Assembly (NCBI RefSeq): GCF_014653175.1 | Contig: NZ_BNAG01000001.1 | Location: 1,178,001-1,242,000 of the forward strand | DNA: 64,000 nucleotides | Direction of reading: 5' to 3' | From: Roseivirga thermotolerans | Lineage (GTDB): Bacteria > Bacteroidota > Bacteroidia > Cytophagales > Cyclobacteriaceae | The notes under the pieces: model-generated | Told to the model about the DNA's origin: nothing | Seen by the model: the letters and a program-made list of their open reading frames with translations, nothing else | The model's database searches: none | Made by a program: the position numbers and the translations under genes | Part shown: positions 34,760-43,476 of the stretch, one piece after another | Layout of the letters: every line of letters begins with the position of its first letter | Position numbering within the stretch: position 1 is the stretch's first letter

Positions 34760-34909
34760 TTAAAAAATTTTGCCTAAACCTCCTTTGCTTACCACAACCG
34801 TAAAGCCTGCCTGCTGTAGGAGAGCAAAAGAGAGCTTCAGTGCTTCGCCCCCATAAGCGTAAGGATTGACTGAAGCATTAAAATCGTATGTCGTGGCAGA
34901 GCTACGCAT
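34760..34909 (-). CDS. 49-residue small ORF between kynU and kmo, unannotated candidate
   Basis: ATG at 34909 overlaps the end of kynU by eight bases (ATGCGTAG) and the TAA (34762-34760) is three bases before the kmo ATG. The frame therefore exactly fills an otherwise empty 145-bp gap in a tightly overlapping operon. The product begins MRSSATTYDFNASVNPYAYG, then a probable amphipathic helix (EALKLSFALLQQAG), a strand (FTVVV) and the end SKGGLGKIF. No signal peptide or membrane helix; no family recognised. An open frame of this length can arise by chance, so the evidence is position and coupling, not homology. Confidence 0.5.
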   Translation of the reverse strand: MRSSATTYDFNASVNPYAYGGEALKLSFALLQQAGFTVVVSKGGLGKIF

Positions 34910-36188
34910 CAGCATATTTCTTGATAGCTTCCTTCAATAGTCGGCCAAAATGATAAACGTCTTCAAACGAATTATACATAGGAGCTGGAGCAATACGAAT
35001 AACATTGGGCTCTCGCCAGTCTCCTATTACACCTTCTTCTACCAGATAATCGAACATTAATTTACCATTTCTGTGGAAGTAAATGGAAAGCTGAGCTCCA
35101 CGCTCCTGAGGGTTTCTGGGTGTAATTATCTCAAATAGCTTGTCTTCACCACTTAATTCATCGATGATGTACTCCAGAAACCCGGTGAGTTTAAGGCTCT
35201 TTTCGCGCAATGCCTCCATGCCCACTTGTTCAAAGAGTTGAAGCGAAGCCAGGTGAGCGGCAGTAGAAATTACGTTTACGTTGCTAAGCTGCCAGCCATC
35301 GGCCCCTGGCATGGGGTCAAAGCCTTTTTCCATAAGAAAGCGCTCTTGCTCGTTGTGCCCCCACCAACCGGCAAAGCGAGGCAAATCTTTATCGTAGGCA
35401 AAGCGCTCGTGAACAAATATTCCGCTTACATTGCCCGGCCCCGAATTAAGGTATTTATAAGAGCACCAGGTGGCAAAGTCTACGTCCCATTCATGCAAAT
35501 GCAAGGGAACATTACCTGCCGCATGGGCCAAATCGAAGCCCACAAAGGCTCCCGCCTTATGGCCGGCTTTGGTAATGGCCGGCATATCGAATAGCTGACC
35601 GGTGTAGTATTGCAATCCGCCAAAAAGCACCAGGGCCAGCTCGTCTGCATTTTGCTCAATAGTAGAAATAATGTCTTCTGTTCTTAGGGTTTGCTCACCG
35701 GTTCGGGGAGCCACTTCTATAAGCGCTTCGGCCGGGTTTAATCCATGAAATTTGAGTTGCGACTCAAACATATACTGATCGGATGGAAAGGCACCTGCTT
35801 CGCAAATCACTTTGAAGCGCTTTTTTGTAGGTCTAAAGAAAGAAACCATTAACAGGTGAAGGTTTACAGAAAGGTTGTTCATGCATACCACCTCCAGGGG
35901 TTTAGCACCTACAATTTTAGCCAGAGCGGCTTTGCTTGCTTCATGAAACTTGAGCCAAGGTCTTTCTTTGGGTACAAAATGACCTTCGACTCCGTAGGTT
36001 TCCCATTTCTTCATTTCTGCTTCCACAAAAGTGCGGGCTTGCTTGGGTTGTAGCCCCAGCGAGTTGCCTGTAAAGTAATAAGCGTCTTTACCCTTTATTT
36101 GTGGAAAGTGAAATTCATTCCGCCACTCTCTAAGCGGGTCGTTCTTGTCTGCCTCTTGGGCAAACGCTAAGCTGTTTTCGTAGATCAT
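34902..36188 (-). CDS. kynU: kynureninase
   Basis: 428 residues. PLP enzyme of the aminotransferase V fold: FTGNSLGLQPKQ near the N-terminus, VGFDLAHAAGNVPLHLHEWD and the Schiff-base Lys in ATWCSYKYLNSGPGN. It cleaves kynurenine or 3-hydroxykynurenine to anthranilate or 3-hydroxyanthranilate plus alanine. The start ATG overlaps the ogt stop by four bases (ATGA). Confidence 0.96.
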   Translation of the reverse strand: MIYENSLAFAQEADKNDPLREWRNEFHFPQIKGKDAYYFTGNSLGLQPKQARTFVEAEMKKWETYGVEGHFVPKERPWLKFHEASKAALAKIVGAKPLEVVCMNNLSVNLHLLMVSFFRPTKKRFKVICEAGAFPSDQYMFESQLKFHGLNPAEALIEVAPRTGEQTLRTEDIISTIEQNADELALVLFGGLQYYTGQLFDMPAITKAGHKAGAFVGFDLAHAAGNVPLHLHEWDVDFATWCSYKYLNSGPGNVSGIFVHERFAYDKDLPRFAGWWGHNEQERFLMEKGFDPMPGADGWQLSNVNVISTAAHLASLQLFEQVGMEALREKSLKLTGFLEYIIDELSGEDKLFEIITPRNPQERGAQLSIYFHRNGKLMFDYLVEEGVIGDWREPNVIRIAPAPMYNSFEDVYHFGRLLKEAIKKYADA

Positions 36189-36682
36189 CCGAATAGTTTC
36201 AGTTGATTATAACCAGGTATGGAGTTTTCGTGTTTAAGTAGCCATTCTTTTCGATGCAGGCCTCCGGCATATCCGGTCAGGCTGCCATCGGTGCCAATTA
36301 TTCTATGGCAGGGTATAATTATGGCTATAGGGTTTTTCCCATTGGCCGAACCCACCGCTCGTATTTTTTTGAGGTCACCCATTTTTATGGCTTGTTTGGC
36401 GTAAGTGGAGGTTGAACCAAAGGGTACGCTGAGCAGATTGTCCCACACTTCTTTCTGAAAATCGGTGCCTTCCGGATCAAGCGGAACGTCAAAAGTTTTG
36501 CGTTTGCCCTCAAAGTATTCTTTGAGCTGAAATTTACAGGTACGAACTATGTTAGGAACCTTTCCATCGGTCGATCGTTCGGCCTCATCGGTAAACGACA
36601 CCAGTTTAATGGCCGTTTCATCGCCCACTATTTTGAGCTTACCGATGGGGGTTTCCAGAAAAGATATGGCTGTGTGTTTCAC
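36185..36682 (-). CDS. ogt: methylated-DNA--protein-cysteine methyltransferase
   Basis: 165 residues, full length. Shows the acceptor site IIIPCHRIIG (Cys125) and the DNA-binding helix AVGSANGKNPIA with TGYAGGLHRKEWLLKHE. It repairs O6-methylguanine by a suicide methyl transfer. GTG start overlapping the TAG stop of the ACMS decarboxylase gene by one base; the end overlaps kynU by four. It is fully embedded in the kynurenine operon, which is unusual because it has no known role in that pathway. Confidence 0.95.
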   Translation of the reverse strand: MKHTAISFLETPIGKLKIVGDETAIKLVSFTDEAERSTDGKVPNIVRTCKFQLKEYFEGKRKTFDVPLDPEGTDFQKEVWDNLLSVPFGSTSTYAKQAIKMGDLKKIRAVGSANGKNPIAIIIPCHRIIGTDGSLTGYAGGLHRKEWLLKHENSIPGYNQLKLFG

Positions 36683-37692
36683 TACTCAAATATTTCGCGT
36701 TTCAAATTGAGCCATTCCAGCGCGGCATTGCAATAAATATCTTCAACAATTTCCGGGGCCAGATTCATTTCCTCAATGTAGGCTCCTATTTCCAAATCGC
36801 CTAAGGGGAAGGGGTAGTCCGAACCTAACATAATGCGCTTAGACCCTTGCATTTTTAGTACATACTCGAGCAGGTCGGCATCGTGGGTAATAGAATCTAT
36901 CCAGAATTTTCCTAAATACTCCCTGGGGTTTACGGGGTTGTCTATGGCCACAAGGTCCGGACGACAGTTAAACCCATGTTCAATTCGGCCCAAAGTAGGT
37001 AAAAACGACCCACCGGCATGCGAGAAGCAAATGCGCAAATCCGGGAGACGCTCCATTACTCCGCCAAATATTAGCGAGCAGGCTGCACGTGAAGTTTCGG
37101 CCGGCATTCCTACTAACCACGGAAGCCAGTAGCGTTCTATACTCGAGAAGCCCATCATGTTCCACGGGTGGATCATTATGCACATACCCAGCTCCTGGCA
37201 GGCTTGGAAAATGGGGAAAAACTTGGGCGAGCTTAGGTTTTTATCGTTGATATTGGATCCTATCTGGATGCCCGGCAAACCGAGTTCATTTTTACAACGC
37301 TCCAGCTCCTTTACCGCGAGGTCTTCATCTTGCATAGGCAGTGTAGCCAGGCCAACATAGTTTTTAGGGTACTTGCGGCATATTTCGGCCATGTGGTCGT
37401 TGAGAAAACGAGCCATTTCCCATCCATCTTCAGGCTTGGCATCATAACCAAACATTACAGGAATGGTTGAAACTACCTGCACTTGTGTATGGTGCCGGGC
37501 ATATTCTTCAATTCGTAGTTCAGGGTCCCAGCAATTGGCTTGTATTTCTCTAAAGAATTTTGCTCCCTTCATCATCATAGCGGCCCCTTCTTTGTGGTGG
37601 TGCAGATGAATGAAATCACCATATCCGAACTTGTCTGCCCATTTTGGCAGGTGTTCCGGAATGATGTGGGTATGCATGTCGATTTTTAGCAT
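36682..37692 (-). CDS. nbaD: 2-amino-3-carboxymuconate-6-semialdehyde decarboxylase (ACMSD)
   Basis: 336 residues of the amidohydrolase superfamily. N-terminal IDMHTHIIPEHLP supplies the zinc HxH; further metal/active-site stretches are MIHPWNMM, CFSHAGGSF and MLGSDYPFPLG. Other stretches (QANCWDPELRI, VSTIPVMFGY, YWLPWLVGMPAET) match known ACMSD sequences closely, including the animal enzyme, so the assignment is strong. It decarboxylates the unstable ring-opened product of 3-hydroxyanthranilate, diverting it from quinolinate. Confidence 0.95.
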   Translation of the reverse strand: MLKIDMHTHIIPEHLPKWADKFGYGDFIHLHHHKEGAAMMMKGAKFFREIQANCWDPELRIEEYARHHTQVQVVSTIPVMFGYDAKPEDGWEMARFLNDHMAEICRKYPKNYVGLATLPMQDEDLAVKELERCKNELGLPGIQIGSNINDKNLSSPKFFPIFQACQELGMCIMIHPWNMMGFSSIERYWLPWLVGMPAETSRAACSLIFGGVMERLPDLRICFSHAGGSFLPTLGRIEHGFNCRPDLVAIDNPVNPREYLGKFWIDSITHDADLLEYVLKMQGSKRIMLGSDYPFPLGDLEIGAYIEEMNLAPEIVEDIYCNAALEWLNLKREIFE

Positions 37693-37693
37693 A

Positions 37694-37746
37694 AGTTATC
37701 GGTTAATTAGTTATCAGTTAATCGGGAGCCCTGATTACTGATAACT
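37694..37746. repeat. direct and inverted repeat hairpin between nbaC and nbaD
   Basis: AGTTATCGGTTAAT (37694-37707) is repeated as AGTTATCAGTTAAT (37709-37722), and an inverted copy ends CTGATAACT (37738-37746). The arms 37709-37726 and 37729-37746 form an almost continuous hairpin of about 16 bp with two single-base bulges. It occupies nearly the whole 66-bp gap, the only sizeable gap in the operon besides that filled by the 49-codon ORF. Possibly a REP-like insertion or an mRNA processing/attenuation element. Confidence 0.65.
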
Positions 37747-37758
37747 GCTTTCTGAACA

Positions 37759-38289
37759 CTATCCTACGAAACGTGGATCCGTTTCCATCACTTGCCCGCA
37801 ATTTTTGCAGGTGCGCAGTTCTTCGGAGTTGTAGAATTCTTTAAATCTTGGAAGAAAGTCTTTCTCAATATTGGTAAGCGGAAAGTAGGTGTCATGAAGC
37901 TTGGTGTTGCAGTTGTCGCAGAACCACATCAGTCCATCGGTATGTTCGGGTTTTCTTACTCTTTCAATCACCAGACCTAAAGAGCCTTCTGAACGAATGG
38001 GGGAGTGAGGTACTTTGGGCGGGTGTAGGTACATGTCGCCTGGGCCAAGTGGAATGTCAACCGCTTTGCCATCTTCCTGAATACGTACCGTAATGTTGCC
38101 TTCCAGTTGGTAAAAAAGCTCTTCGGTTTCGTTGTAGTGGTAATCTTTTCGGGCATTTGGCCCGGCAACAATCATCACAATATAGTCGGTACCTTCCGGA
38201 TAAAGGTTTTTGTTACCAACGGGTGGTTTCAGTTTGTCGCGGTTTTCTTCAATCCACCGCGTCAGGTTAAATGGTCTTCTTATTGACAT
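37759..38289 (-). CDS. nbaC: 3-hydroxyanthranilate 3,4-dioxygenase
   Basis: 176 residues from ATG 38289, chosen because GGAGAG precedes it by a few bases; the frame extends to 38337 but adds non-family sequence. Cupin fold with Fe ligands in DYHYNETEEL and VPHSPIRSE, plus the C-terminal rubredoxin-like metal site of bacterial enzymes (CDNC near 138 and CKNC near 164). It opens 3-hydroxyanthranilate to 2-amino-3-carboxymuconate semialdehyde. First gene of the minus-strand operon. Confidence 0.95.
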   Translation of the reverse strand: MSIRRPFNLTRWIEENRDKLKPPVGNKNLYPEGTDYIVMIVAGPNARKDYHYNETEELFYQLEGNITVRIQEDGKAVDIPLGPGDMYLHPPKVPHSPIRSEGSLGLVIERVRKPEHTDGLMWFCDNCNTKLHDTYFPLTNIEKDFLPRFKEFYNSEELRTCKNCGQVMETDPRFVG

Positions 38290-38312
38290 AATTTCTCTCC
38301 ATTTGATGTGTT

Positions 38313-38363
38313 CGAATTTACCCAAAAATCGGCTCATGCCTAAATTCGATTTTCATAACTTTG
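38313..38363. promoter_or_regulatory. divergent promoters of the kynurenine genes
   Basis: In the 85-bp gap between the divergent operons, the plus strand has TAACTTTG (38356-38363), a perfect TAnnTTTG box 11 bp before the SDR ATG at 38375. The minus strand has TAAATTCG (38320-38313), one mismatch from consensus, placed to give about a 17-nt leader for nbaC. A shared regulator could act here; no palindrome stands out. Confidence 0.5.
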
Positions 38364-38374
38364 AATGAACCCCA

Positions 38375-39169
38375 ATGTCTATGGATTTAAATTTAAAAGG
38401 AAAGTCGGCTTTGGTTTGCGGAAGTACGCAGGGCATAGGAAAAGCCATTGCAGAAGAACTGGCCAACTTAGGGTGCAGCGTTACACTTTGCGCCAGAAAT
38501 AAGCAAAAACTAGAGGAGGTGAAACAAGGGTTGTTCAAAGCCTCTGGTCAAAAACATCAGATTCTTGTGGCCGATTTTGCTAGCCCAGCGGAACTGAAAT
38601 CGACCATTGATAAGCATCTGGCCGAGGGCAATCAATATCATATTTTGATCAATAATACGGGTGGTCCACCTGCAGGTCAGGCCATAGATGCCGATGTGGA
38701 GGCTTTTAGAATTGCGTTCAACCAGCATTTGGTATGCAACCAGATCTTGGCTCAGGCTTGTGTGCCGGCTATGAAAGAAGCAGCTTACGGAAGAATCATC
38801 AATGTGATTTCCACTTCCGTGAAAATGCCCATCCCAGGCTTGGGGGTGTCAAACACCATTCGTGGAGCCGTGGCCAATTGGTCGAAGACTCTGGCGAATG
38901 AGCTGGGTCAATTTGGCATTACAGTCAATAACGTATTGCCTGGGGCAACTTCAACACAACGCCTTTCTTCAATCATTGAGAATAAGGCCAAAAAGACAGG
39001 CAGGGCTGTAGAAGATGTTGAAGCAGAAATGAAGTCGGAAATTCCGGCCAGGCGATTTGCCGAAGCTTCTGAAGTGGCCGCTGCGGCAGCTTTTTTGGCT
39101 TCTCCGGCAGCAGGTTATATCAATGGAATTAATGTGCCCGTAGATGGTGGTAGAACGGGTTGTTTGTAA
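38375..39169 (+). CDS. SDR-family protein lacking the canonical Tyr-Lys pair
   Basis: 264 residues. Rossmann motif CGSTQGIGKAIAEEL (about 15-29), LINNTGGPPAG, and a C-terminal YINGINVPVDGG typical of classical short-chain dehydrogenases. The Ser of the catalytic triad is present (ISTSVK, about 146-149), but the YxxxK site reads SNTIR (159-163), so Tyr and Lys are replaced. A subgroup with SNTIR-like motifs exists; its chemistry is unclear. Upstream of and one base from the ALDH gene; probably acts in late kynurenine catabolism (inference). Start 38375, with ATG 38381 also possible. Confidence 0.85.
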   Translation: MSMDLNLKGKSALVCGSTQGIGKAIAEELANLGCSVTLCARNKQKLEEVKQGLFKASGQKHQILVADFASPAELKSTIDKHLAEGNQYHILINNTGGPPAGQAIDADVEAFRIAFNQHLVCNQILAQACVPAMKEAAYGRIINVISTSVKMPIPGLGVSNTIRGAVANWSKTLANELGQFGITVNNVLPGATSTQRLSSIIENKAKKTGRAVEDVEAEMKSEIPARRFAEASEVAAAAAFLASPAAGYINGINVPVDGGRTGCL

Positions 39170-39170
39170 A

Positions 39171-40613
39171 ATGGAAAGGATACTCAATTATATCGGAGGC
39201 AAATTAGTAGAACCTCAGTCAGGGGGCTATTTAGATAATATTGAACCGGCCACAGGAAAGGTATATGGTGAAATTCCAGACTCAGATCATCAGGATATTG
39301 AGCTGGCTGTTCAGGCAGCCGAAGAAGCATTTCTTGCATGGTCAAAGACCTCCAGAGAAGAGCGTTCTCGTTGTATGCTTAGGATTGCAGACCTGATCGA
39401 TGACAACCTGGAAATGCTGGCTATGGCCGAAGCCAAAGACAATGGGAAGCCGGTAAAGCTGGCCAGGTCAGTCGATATTCCTCGGGCTTCTGCAAATATG
39501 AGGTTCTTTGCCACGGCTATTCTACATGAGTCTACTGAGGCACACCAAACCGATGGTGAAGCTTTGAATGTGACCACCCGGAGCCCATTAGGGGTAGTAG
39601 CCTGTATTTCTCCATGGAACCTGCCACTCTATCTCTTTACCTGGAAAATTGCTCCTGCTCTTGCTTCGGGCAATACGGTGGTGGCTAAACCCTCAGAAAT
39701 TACACCTATGACGGCCTTTATTTTTTCCAAACTTTGCAAAGAGGCCGGTCTGCCCGATGGAGTACTCAATATTGTTCATGGCTTAGGCGCCAAAGCGGGG
39801 CAGGCCTTGGTAGAGCAACCAGGAATAAAGGCCATTTCTTTTACGGGAGGAACACAAACCGGGAAAAAAATTGCAAGCACGGCTGCCTCTCAATTCAAAA
39901 AACTATCGCTGGAGTTGGGTGGGAAAAATCCCAACATAATCTTTGCCGATGCCGATTTTGAGAAAGCCCTGAAAACCTCTGTGCACTCCAGTTTCGCCAA
40001 TCAAGGACAAATTTGCCTATGTGGATCAAGAATATTTATAGAACGATCCATTTATAACAAGTTTAAAGAGGCATTTGTGAGCAAGACCAAAGCGCTGCGA
40101 ATAGGTTCGCCCTATGCCAGCGATACTCAGGTTGGTGCTTTGGTTTCTAAACAGCACATGGAAAAGGTGCTTTCATACATCGATCTGGCCACAAAAGAGG
40201 GGGGGGCTTTACTTGCCGGAGGTCAGCGAGTCGTGCTGGATGGGGAGTTTGCTGAGGGCTATTATGTACAACCAACGGTGTTTGAAGGTCTTTCACAAGA
40301 GTGCAGAACTAATAGCGAAGAGATTTTTGGTCCGGTAGTTACCCTGCAGCCTTTTGATACAGAAGAAGAGGTAATTGCTATGGCCAATGCAACTGACTAT
40401 GGCCTTTCGGCTACAGTTTGGACAAGTCACTTAGACCGTGCCAACCGTGTGTCGGCTGCTCTTCATAGCGGCATAGTGTGGGTAAATTGCTGGCTATTTC
40501 GCGACTTGAGAACCCCTTTTGGTGGGGTAAAACATAGCGGTATGGGTAGAGAAGGTGGCTGGGATGCGTTAAATTTCTTCACGGAAAAGAAGAATATCTG
40601 CGTTAAACTTTAA
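39171..40613 (+). CDS. aldehyde dehydrogenase, probable 2-aminomuconate-6-semialdehyde dehydrogenase
   Basis: 480 residues from ATG 39171, one base after the SDR stop. ALDH landmarks: SPWNLPLYLFTWKIAPALASG, SFTGGTQTGKKIA, catalytic Glu in LELGGKNPN and Cys in GQICLCGSR, and the ending FGGVKHSGMGREGG. The N-terminal INYIGGKLVEPQSGGYLD and the context of nbaC/nbaD favour the enzyme oxidising 2-aminomuconate semialdehyde to 2-aminomuconate. Alternative substrates such as alpha-ketoglutarate semialdehyde from the nearby hydroxyproline set cannot be excluded. Confidence 0.88.
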   Translation: MERILNYIGGKLVEPQSGGYLDNIEPATGKVYGEIPDSDHQDIELAVQAAEEAFLAWSKTSREERSRCMLRIADLIDDNLEMLAMAEAKDNGKPVKLARSVDIPRASANMRFFATAILHESTEAHQTDGEALNVTTRSPLGVVACISPWNLPLYLFTWKIAPALASGNTVVAKPSEITPMTAFIFSKLCKEAGLPDGVLNIVHGLGAKAGQALVEQPGIKAISFTGGTQTGKKIASTAASQFKKLSLELGGKNPNIIFADADFEKALKTSVHSSFANQGQICLCGSRIFIERSIYNKFKEAFVSKTKALRIGSPYASDTQVGALVSKQHMEKVLSYIDLATKEGGALLAGGQRVVLDGEFAEGYYVQPTVFEGLSQECRTNSEEIFGPVVTLQPFDTEEEVIAMANATDYGLSATVWTSHLDRANRVSAALHSGIVWVNCWLFRDLRTPFGGVKHSGMGREGGWDALNFFTEKKNICVKL

Positions 40614-40728
40614 TTTTGTGACGTACAGCAAATTAAATGGTGTGAATTCAACCCTAAGTGTGGATTTCGATGTGAATAACTTTTTTGAATTATTGGTTTG
40701 TTAAATTTTATTTAATAAAAAATCCTAC

Positions 40729-40736
40729 TAACTTTG
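40729..40736 (+). promoter_or_regulatory. -7 promoter box of the 40742-40896 RNA
   Basis: TAACTTTG matches TAnnTTTG exactly, in an AT-rich stretch, with expected transcription start near 40742. A TTTG (40697-40700) lies 28 bp upstream, longer than the usual -33 spacing. Confidence 0.55.
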
Positions 40737-40741
40737 ACTTC

Positions 40742-40896
40742 ACATGAGGAAGAAATTCCTCTCCTCCAAAGACAATTCGCGAAAGCAATTAAAGATAAGT
40801 CTGGGTGTAGGAATCGAAAGATTCACTATGAGTAGTTAGTTACCCAGGTGTTTAGGTGAAAGGGAGTCGCTCCAACGGGAGTGACTCTTTTATTTT
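40742..40896 (+). ncRNA. candidate structured RNA with three GAAA-tetraloop hairpins
   Basis: Downstream of the -7 box are: GAGGAA-GAAA-TTCCTC (40746-40761, perfect); AATT(c)GC-GAAA-GCAATT (40774-40790, one bulged C); and TAG-GAATC-GAAA-GATTC-(a)-CTA (40808-40828, one bulged A). The third is enclosed by CTGGGT (40801-40806) pairing with ACCCAG (40842-40847). A 10-bp terminator stem follows. A 31-codon frame starts at 40744 (MRKKFLSSKDNSRKQLKISL, ending at the TAG near 40837) and could be a leaderless peptide, but the hairpin arms fall inside it, so an RNA function is the simpler reading. I do not recognise a known class. The ends are estimates. Confidence 0.6.
40864..40896 (+). terminator. 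rho-independent terminator of the candidate RNA
   Basis: GAGTCGCTCC (40864-40873), loop AACG, GGAGTGACTC (40878-40887): ten base pairs including one G-U, followed by TTTTATTTT. No protein gene ends nearby (the ALDH stop is 250 bp upstream), so it must terminate a separate transcript or long leader. Confidence 0.85.
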
Positions 40897-41067
40897 AGCC
40901 CCTTGTCTTTAAGCCTTACTCTATGCCTGCCATGCCCGTGAATATTTAGCTTTTTTTTGCAACTTTTTGAAAATCAGCAAGTCTCTGATGTAATCTTTTA
41001 GGTACCAGGGTCGTCTTAGAAGACAGACACAGAAAGTCGCAACCAACTAAACTTAATTCAAATCGCC

Positions 41068-43476
41068 ATGGTCAAAAACTATTTGAAAGTAGCATTGCGC
41101 TCATTGCTCAAAAACCAAATCTTTTCTTTAATCAATATTACAGGTCTTGCTCTGGGCATTGCCGCCAGTCTGCTCATTATGCAATACGTTAGTTATGAGC
41201 TGAGTTATGATAATTTCAATCAGAATGCGGATCGTATTTATCGGCTGAAAACCAACCGGTACGAAAAAGGAGTATTGAGCACAGAATGGGCTGCCGGTGT
41301 GGTTTCCATTGGGTATTTGCTCAATGAAAACCTGGCCGATGTAGAGGCTTATGCCCGACTAACCCAAACCAGCGGTGTGTTTTCCAGAGGAGACATAGAG
41401 TTTGCTGAGAGCAAGGTGTATTTCGCCAATCCATCAGTGTTCGATGTTTTCGATACTAAAATATTATATGGCGATAAGGAAACGGCTTTAGTTGATCCCT
41501 CTTCGGTAGCTATTTCAAAGACAACTGCACAAAAATACTTTGCCAAAGTAGATGTGGTGGGAGAAACCATGTATTTCAATAAGAACCGGCCCATTAAGAT
41601 TACAGCAGTGTTTGAAGACGTGCCCCAAAACTCCCATTTCAAGTACGATATTTTGGCCTCATGGAGCACCATGGCACAAGGAGAGAGAGCTCAACAGGCC
41701 AACAGTGTCTGGTATTGGGATGGCTACTTTAATTATGTGATGCTCAAAGAAGGGGTTAATCCGGAAGAGTTTGCCGGCAAGGTCGATGACTTTGTAGAGG
41801 CTCAGTGGGGAGATGAAATGCGAGAGAATGAAACCTGGATGGACTTTGATCTTCAGCCATTAAGAGACATTCATCTCTACTCGAACTATATGATGGAAGC
41901 AGAGGTAAATGGCGATGGTGATGCGGTATATGCGCTTCTTGGCATTAGCTTCTTTATCATAATTATTGCATGGGTCAACTACATTAACCTGGCCACAGCC
42001 AAGTCCATGGAGAGGGCTAGAGAAGTAGGTCTGCGTAAAGTCTTAGGTTCGCTGCGAGGGCAGTTGATCAGGCAATTCCTTACCGAAAGCTTTTTAATTA
42101 ATCTGCTGGCAGTAGTACTGGCCTTTGGTATTGTGGTTTTGGCTCTGCCTTCTTTTGCGCGTTTGGCAGACCAGCCCATAACCATGGAGCTTTTTATGCA
42201 GCAGGGCTTCTGGGTAGGCCTGGGGGCACTTTTTTTAGTTGGAACATTTCTTTCAGGGTTATATCCGGCTATGGTGCTATCGTCTTACAAACCCATTGAT
42301 ACCCTGAAAGGTGGTGCGGTGTCTGGCTCAAGGGGTGCTTGGCTAAGAAAGGGGCTGGTGGTTTTTCAATTCATGGCATCTGTGGGCTTGATTATCGGCA
42401 CTTATACGGTTTATGAACAGATTTCATTTATGAGGAACCAAGAGCTTGGGGTAAACATAGACCGGACTTTGGTAATTGAGGGGCCAAGTGTCAGAGATTC
42501 CACTTATCAGGAAAAACTCACCGCTTTTGGCGATGTAATGGAAGCCAATGCGAACGTCAGGAAAGTGGTAGTAAGTACCGGTGTTCCAGGTAGATCGGTC
42601 GATTGGAATGCAGGAGGAATCAGAAGACAGGGAGAGCCGGACACCGAAGGTAAGCAATACAGGGTTTTGGGTATAGGTTATGATTTTGTGGAAACTTATG
42701 ACCTGAAGTTGGTAGCTGGGAGAAGCTTTGATGAGAGCTTTGGCGATGAAGGCTCCAAAATTCTTTTCTCTCGGTCGGCTGTAAGGCAGCTTGGTTTCGA
42801 TAATATTGAAGATGCACTGAATGTGGATATATACTTTTGGGGGCAGAACTATACCATAATAGGGGTTCTGGAAGATTATCATCATACTTCGCTCAAGGAA
42901 AATTATGATCAACTGATTTTTAGGCTTATTCCCGATGCCAGCAACTACTATTCGATAAAGTATGAAGCGGCCAATACTCAGGAAGTCATTCGACTGGCGG
43001 AGGAAAATTGGGCCAGGTTCTTTCCGGGAAACCCATTTGAATACTTCTTCCTGGATGATCGATTCAATGAACAGTACAAGGCCGATCAGCAATTTGGTAG
43101 TGTATTCACCATTTTCTCAGGCTTAGCCATTTTCGTAGCCTGCTTAGGATTATTTGGATTGGCTGCCTTTATGACTGCCAAGCGAACCAAGGAAATTGGC
43201 ATTCGAAAAGTGCTAGGAGCTTCCATTTCAAGTATTCTGCAATTGCTTTCTACGGACTTTATGAAGTTAATTTTAGTGTCGGTGGTTCTGGCAATTCCTG
43301 TAGCCTATTATGGCATGGAGCAATGGCTCAACGGCTTTGCCTTTAGAATAGACCTCTACTGGTACATTTTTGCCTTGCCGGCCGTGCTGGTTTTGACTAT
43401 TGCCTTGTTAACGGTAAGCTTCCAGACTTTCCGGGCGGCTAAGTCTAATCCTGTGGAGAGTTTGAGGTATGAGTAG
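41068..43476 (+). CDS. FtsX/MacB-type ABC transporter permease
   Basis: 802 residues. N-terminal transmembrane helix (about 20-42), MacB-type periplasmic domain (about 45-250), then FtsX-like three-helix bundles at about 285-410 (MERAREVGLRKVLGSLRGQLIRQFLTESF) and 680-795 (AKRTKEIGIRKVLGASISSILQLL), with a second periplasmic domain between (about 450-660). This double-permease architecture is frequent in Cytophagales and often lacks a neighbouring ATPase, as here. Substrate unknown; mechanotransmission or lipoprotein/peptide export is typical of the superfamily. Confidence 0.92.
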   Translation: MVKNYLKVALRSLLKNQIFSLINITGLALGIAASLLIMQYVSYELSYDNFNQNADRIYRLKTNRYEKGVLSTEWAAGVVSIGYLLNENLADVEAYARLTQTSGVFSRGDIEFAESKVYFANPSVFDVFDTKILYGDKETALVDPSSVAISKTTAQKYFAKVDVVGETMYFNKNRPIKITAVFEDVPQNSHFKYDILASWSTMAQGERAQQANSVWYWDGYFNYVMLKEGVNPEEFAGKVDDFVEAQWGDEMRENETWMDFDLQPLRDIHLYSNYMMEAEVNGDGDAVYALLGISFFIIIIAWVNYINLATAKSMERAREVGLRKVLGSLRGQLIRQFLTESFLINLLAVVLAFGIVVLALPSFARLADQPITMELFMQQGFWVGLGALFLVGTFLSGLYPAMVLSSYKPIDTLKGGAVSGSRGAWLRKGLVVFQFMASVGLIIGTYTVYEQISFMRNQELGVNIDRTLVIEGPSVRDSTYQEKLTAFGDVMEANANVRKVVVSTGVPGRSVDWNAGGIRRQGEPDTEGKQYRVLGIGYDFVETYDLKLVAGRSFDESFGDEGSKILFSRSAVRQLGFDNIEDALNVDIYFWGQNYTIIGVLEDYHHTSLKENYDQLIFRLIPDASNYYSIKYEAANTQEVIRLAEENWARFFPGNPFEYFFLDDRFNEQYKADQQFGSVFTIFSGLAIFVACLGLFGLAAFMTAKRTKEIGIRKVLGASISSILQLLSTDFMKLILVSVVLAIPVAYYGMEQWLNGFAFRIDLYWYIFALPAVLVLTIALLTVSFQTFRAAKSNPVESLRYE

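Follow-up and report, generated by a model that had tools for sequence, protein, structure and literature searches.

The interval at about 40742-40896 of the window (the whole 64,000-nucleotide stretch of DNA that was analyzed) is very probably, judging by its sequence and conservation, the gene of a trans-acting base-pairing sRNA of Roseivirga that has its own promoter and terminator. A hairpin domain and the terminator would flank a linker that stays single-stranded and acts as the seed. Based on sequence and calculated duplex energies, this linker is predicted to pair with sites of the (C)ACCUAAACA type that precede the start codon of an orphan gene, here called gene A, by a few nucleotides, and with similar sites in the leaders of genes for giant surface proteins. 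It is further predicted to pair with longer sites in the 3' UTR of gene A, which mostly read CCCUU(U/A)CACCUAAACAC, and with 21 nt inside the ftsZ coding sequence. Assuming that the RNA is made and pairs in the cell, pairing upstream of start codons would block ribosome binding, while RNase cleavage or decay may follow from the extended duplexes formed with ftsZ and the 3' UTR. On balance, the RNA would repress surface proteins and possibly division. Two RNAs, or the sRNA plus a 3' UTR copy, could also act jointly on both ends of gene A.

The locus and its conservation in Roseivirga

The sequence-only reading had described a -7 box, three GAAA-capped hairpins, a CTGGGT/ACCCAG stem and a 10-bp terminator in an intergenic position, and all of these elements were recovered at the same positions (Table 1). 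The upstream ALDH-like gene has its stop at 40613, 115 nt before the -7 box, and the downstream ABC permease gene starts at 41068. Further upstream, positions 34902-40613 look like a kynurenine (tryptophan) degradation cluster, with KynU-like, amidohydrolase, HAO-like and ALDH-like genes named from the look of their translations. The -7 box conforms to TAnnTTTG, the Bacteroidota -7 consensus. Such a box is present upstream of the core in all 19 Roseivirga loci, with a TTAAAT-TTT-ATTTAA-like element upstream of it, and the intrinsic terminator is conserved as well. Transcription presumably starts at about 40742-40744, and the palindrome-like element at 40701-40715 may be a regulator site for the RNA.

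Table 1. Features of the probable RNA gene and its promoter (positions in the window)
Feature	Position	Strand	Basis or remark
Palindromic element TTAAATTTTATTTAA, -33 region of promoter	40701..40715	+	same place in the 19 genus loci, some changes
-7 box TAACTTTG	40729..40736	+	Bacteroidota type TAnnTTTG
Variable 5' leader with GAAA hairpins 1 and 2	40742..40790	+	box-to-core length 57-161 nt (19 loci)
Hairpin 1, GAGGAA-GAAA-TTCCTC	40746-40761	+	sequence
Hairpin 2, AATTC-GC-GAAA-GC-AATT	40774-40790	+	sequence; MFE fold gives only 2 bp
Conserved hairpin domain: CTGGGT/ACCCAG stem, inner hairpin 40807-40829, GAAA loop 40816-40819	40801..40847	+	
Enclosing stem	CTGGGT 40801-40806 / ACCCAG 40842-40847	+	sequence
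Hairpin 3, GAATC-GAAA-GATTC	inside 40808-40828	+	sequence
Single-stranded GAGTAGTTAGTT in internal loop	40830..40841	+	nearly invariant in alignment A1
Linker, proposed antisense seed GGTGTTTAGGTGAAAGG	40847..40863	+	shares its first base with the stem and its last two with the terminator
Start of terminator 5' arm	to 40868	+	part of the predicted ftsZ pairing; complementarity 40848-40868
Intrinsic terminator	40862..40896	+	sequence conserved; 10-bp stem 40864-40873/40878-40887, then T-rich run

The earlier reading had allowed for the locus being unconserved, which is not what we observed. BLASTN found it in 18 of 18 other Roseivirga genomes (E 5.3e-26 or better), giving 19 of 19 with the genome of the window, which itself has one clear copy, and a BLASTN search of 80 genomes beyond the genus gave no convincing homologue. 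The BLAST matches cover the core alone, at 83-99% identity, and the leader diverges. A 28-mer spanning linker and terminator occurs in only 16 contigs from a collection of 84,980 species genomes, all titled Roseivirga or Cyclobacteriaceae, Cytophagales or Cytophagia MAGs. Across the core (40791-40897), alignment columns are 95% identical on average. Besides the promoter box, all 19 loci keep hairpin 3 within the CTGGGT/ACCCAG stem, the terminator and the near-invariant linker GGUGUUUAGGUGAAAGG (40847-40863), the last being the same in 18 genomes with a single change in G009.

The predicted fold of 40738-40896 beats 200 of 200 shuffles (z -3.6). Most of this signal is carried by 40798-40896, which alone gives z -4.55, with z -2.78 for the hairpin domain (40798-40851) and a weak z -1.76 for the leader (40744-40790). 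Linker positions 40848-40859, in the conserved candidate seed, are unpaired in the MFE fold. The least variable part of the RNA is an unpaired one, which points to antisense pairing. When the proposed stems are laid on the core alignment, 99.1% of cells are paired, with 100% and 98.6% for the two helices of the hairpin domain. The sequence-only reading had named compensatory changes together with retained GAAA loops as what would support it. The former are seen at three pairs that vary on both sides (8 cells, two of these pairs in the inner hairpin); the loops of hairpins 1 and 2 are not kept. Shuffles were as good in 0 of 500 cases for cells and covariation score, in 17 of 500 for the number of pairs and in 155 of 500 for pair types, a count in which most pairs are invariant and hence uninformative.

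Several other identities for the locus were rejected. No Rfam model (of 4227) reached its gathering score in the window, and six models that matched near the locus with E values up to 10 all scored far below theirs; the related loci likewise match no known Rfam RNA. A phage origin was dismissed given that the exact 17-mer is present in 0 viral contigs. A small ORF was dismissed since its start codon is not kept among relatives: the ATG of the 31-codon frame is there in 3 of 19 genomes (by eye), and this frame, whose conservation the earlier reading had named as evidence against an RNA, is not kept.

Outside of Roseivirga, model R1 detected in genus g36 a hairpin followed by GGTGATTAGGTGAAA and a terminator (E 2.4e-5 in G237), which by its sequence may be an sRNA that is either related or convergent; of the other weak R1 matches, several resemble terminators only. 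A family-wide scan for GTGNTTAGGTGAA gave no general excess relative to the reversed control. Genus g36 (L164-L192) also contains GTGNTTAGGTGA in 10 genomes, in the A form at 21 of 29 sites. By eye, some of these sites are in sense orientation before terminators, often with a second TAGGTGA near, and others are in another repeated RNA that ends in GGTTAGGTTAGGTTACG. One genome of genus g81 (G105) has GTGCTTAGGTGAA four times, perhaps another seed variant.

Complements of the linker in other transcripts

The first hint of targets came from BLASTN side hits over the linker alone that ran antisense to ftsZ or other genes. When windows along the whole RNA were compared, the linker had the highest affinity for the target sites; windows scanned over the internal-loop segment 40830-40841 showed no special affinity to them. 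Taken together, the conserved complementarity to several mRNAs described below exceeds chance.

Gene A codes for an orphan protein of ~212 aa, with no significant relative in Pfam, NCBIfam or PDB, and is found in 15 of the 19 genomes at 16 loci (L251-L266). ACCTAAA is present in 15 of the 16 leaders, and 14 hold ACCTAAACA at 2-14 nt before the start codon (start codons as chosen by script). The leader of L258 has only ACCTAAACC, a weak site, and the paralogue L266 has neither a leader site nor a 3' site. In 15 of 16 loci ACCTAAA also recurs at most 60 nt beyond the stop codon, in a seed-complement site that is followed by a terminator and mostly reads (C)CCTT(T/A)CACCTAAACAC, with L253 and L257 differing in the first half and L263 having CACCTAAGC. 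Sites at both ends of the mRNA are thus present in 15 of 16 loci, or 14 without the weak L258 leader. In ungapped alignments anchored on ACCTAA, which is fixed by choice, the other island positions are mostly 0.74-1.0 identical (one T/A position in the 3' site is 0.47) and the flanks are 0.33-0.36 identical. Conserved islands amid diverged flanks indicate that the sites do not just reflect common ancestry of the entire gene A UTRs. Mean duplex energies with the linker are -19.7 (5') and -26.4 (3') kcal/mol relative to -13.6 and -13.8 for shuffled seeds, none of which (0/200) matched the real value, and control stretches of gene A coding sequence exhibited no excess affinity (58 of 200 shuffles as good). 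Gene A homologues in six genomes of three other genera have the motif at neither end (0/6), and model R1 gave no match at E up to 1 in these six genomes, of which its result lists G043 alone by name.

The second candidate group consists of large surface-protein genes, with 51 matches in 16 of 19 genomes and open frames of 803-2,402 aa (mostly 1,850-2,400). Several of these stand in tandem, and one such series follows a gene that by eye looks purM-like. Among the leaders of the 30 matches that were fetched, CACCTAA is present in 15, and so missing from half, and ACCTAAA is present in 13. Their mean energy with the linker is -17.1 versus -12.7 for shuffles (0/200 as good), for pairings that are short, and a slight affinity extends to control coding sequence of these genes (24 of 200 shuffles as good).

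In 11 of 19 genomes, the linker plus the first terminator bases are predicted to pair with the ftsZ region coding for DSLSPKH, always at one homologous place and with energies of -29.8 to -40.5 kcal/mol, compared with -16.0 to -23.8 kcal/mol for the next best places in those 11 genes. The complementarity extends over 21 of 21 bases in G001 and G014, and the site in the genome of the window pairs throughout with two G-U pairs; by eye, many differences inside the site retain G-U pairing. The site is weaker in G009 and missing in 7 of 19 genomes. A compensatory seed change in G009 was considered and rejected, as the energy there is about -24.1 to -24.3 and is equal (-24.1) with either its own or the common seed. 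Seed-target covariation across the 19 genomes could draw on two linker forms, and the only variant, that of G009, is neutral. The best places in other-family ftsZ genes (5 of 9 parsed) reach -19.2 to -22.1 kcal/mol. The DSLSPKH peptide may be kept for protein reasons, and ftsZ is the least certain target.

Matches to the seed sequence are also in excess. The exact 12-mer GTGTTTAGGTGA occurs at 64 sites in the 19 genomes, of which 19 are the RNA itself, leaving 45 extra sites versus 9 for the backward pattern, although the 45 include near-identical repeats at the ends of contigs, which are not independent of each other. With up to 3 mismatches, the 20-mer of the linker has 26 extra sites versus 5 for the reversed pattern. 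The 10-mer GTGTTTAGGT is present at 10 sites in the genome of the window versus 5 for the control, and 4 of the 10 look unrelated. Targets inside the window were rejected, given that CACCTAAACA with at most one mismatch was found 5 times there (one being the linker itself) for an expected mean of 5.00.

A terminator-like hairpin closely follows the 12-mer in the sense direction at 18 of the 45 extra sites (L128 is doubtful). Tails resembling T9SS sorting domains precede 7 of the 17 sense sites examined (by eye; in L138 the stop is 284 nt away), and a TIGR04183 scan of four such tails placed two above the cut-off and two just below. By their sequence, the sense sites look like 3' UTRs, or 3' UTR-derived sRNAs, with the same seed, and a seed-terminator cassette seems to have spread among other transcripts, several of them T9SS-cargo-like. 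Seed and terminator-like hairpin occur together at the transcript ends L144:801-812, L109, L111, L117, L121, L122 and L124-L127, with further such loci being L129, L130, L132, L135, L138, L140 and L141.

The orientation of these sites also bears on whether the shared sequence is instead the site of an RNA- or DNA-binding protein, with the UTR complement being the same site on the other strand. Such a protein would fit an element that is intergenic in both orientations, but we consider it improbable, as orientation follows the logic of an RNA. Specifically, only 7 of 45 sites have a terminator-like hairpin in the other direction, and four of these seven lie in gene A 3' UTRs; by the same criterion, 82 of 1760 random stretches score positive. 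Furthermore, it is the complement that precedes start codons, with sense 7-mers found in 0 of 46 leaders, and proteins do not usually recognize sites as long as the 21-nt ftsZ match.

The leader hairpins and GNRA loops

Only 3 of 19 loci (the genome of the window, L012 and L017) have a perfect leader hairpin of 4 bp or more with a GNRA loop; the short GCGAAAGC from hairpin 2, too small for this count, recurs by eye in the two close relatives L002 and L003. Thus, three GAAA loops in a row are a trait of this one genome and not of the family. What holds of the proposed novel structured RNA in all 19 loci is the structured RNA with its box and terminator, and not the three-GAAA array. The loop of hairpin 3 is GNRA in 17 of 19 loci (GAAA, GTAA or GTGA) and TTTT in the other two.

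The strong fold and this frequent GNRA loop would suit a cis-acting or tertiary-folded, riboswitch-like RNA with docking loops, as the sequence-only reading had suggested, but that reading does not survive well. Hairpins 1 and 2 are not generally kept and hairpin 3 tolerates TTTT. The RNA also has its own terminator. Only 7 of 19 loci have the ABC permease as the nearest downstream gene, a variability that speaks for an independent unit and against a leader that serves one conserved downstream gene. Since, in addition, variation is lowest in a linker that is unpaired and has complements elsewhere, a riboswitch was rejected as very unlikely. Hardly credible, finally, is that the linker mimics a Shine-Dalgarno sequence and titrates the 3' end of 16S rRNA: its AGGUG(A) is complementary to the anti-SD core, but this explains neither why complements are conserved in leaders and 3' UTRs of mRNAs across the genus nor a match of 17-21 nt.

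Relation to known sRNAs and a possible wider network

To our knowledge, few base-pairing sRNAs of Bacteroidota outside of Bacteroides and Flavobacterium have assigned targets, and a search of a literature library did not find Roseivirga together with 'sRNA' or 'small RNA'. The closest parallel to the proposed trans-acting sRNA is offered by FopS and GibS of Bacteroides thetaiotaomicron, which are described as having the seed in a single-stranded stretch beside the terminator and as pairing near the start codons of surface proteins, with FopS being a 14-member family that acts on SusC homologues (PMC11697453). The Roseivirga RNA would share with them a seed by the terminator, several loci with the same seed, and pairing near surface-protein start codons. 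It differs from FopS, as described there, by having one structured core gene per genome, an added hairpin domain and the seed at the ends of other transcripts, and it has no Rfam match; the two are set apart here by description. The FopS/GibS consensus is reported as deposited in Rfam (PMC11697453).

Rfp18 of Flavobacterium is likewise a genus-wide structured sRNA of Bacteroidota. In its published account, the third stem-loop of Rfp18 is predicted to pair with secreted proteins and an adhesin, and two protease mRNAs drop when Rfp18 is deleted (PMC9723704). Unlike that stem-loop, and again compared by description, the Roseivirga RNA would use an open linker. DicF of Escherichia coli shares ftsZ as a target, here a candidate one; it is described as inhibiting ftsZ translation with Hfq, as prophage-borne and as being released from an mRNA 3' region (PMC9438474, PMC5069750). 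Relative to that description, the Roseivirga ftsZ site lies far inside the reading frame (at about codon 353), the RNA has its own promoter box and there is no Rfam match in the window.

A wider reading, which we put forward tentatively and hold to be doubtful as yet, is that of a genus-wide network in which the core sRNA and the seed-terminator cassettes, including those of T9SS-cargo-like mRNAs, share one seed, and in which the targets carry its complements before the start and after the stop. Both ends of a message would then be clamped, and cargo genes might repress rival surface genes and tune ftsZ. Comparative data alone have yielded a seed, candidate targets and a negative control, so that a concrete and cheap test is possible. 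If true, surface display, an orphan gene and possibly ftsZ would be wired together in an unusual way, through sites at both ends of an mRNA and a seed common to the ends of secretion-cargo-like transcripts.
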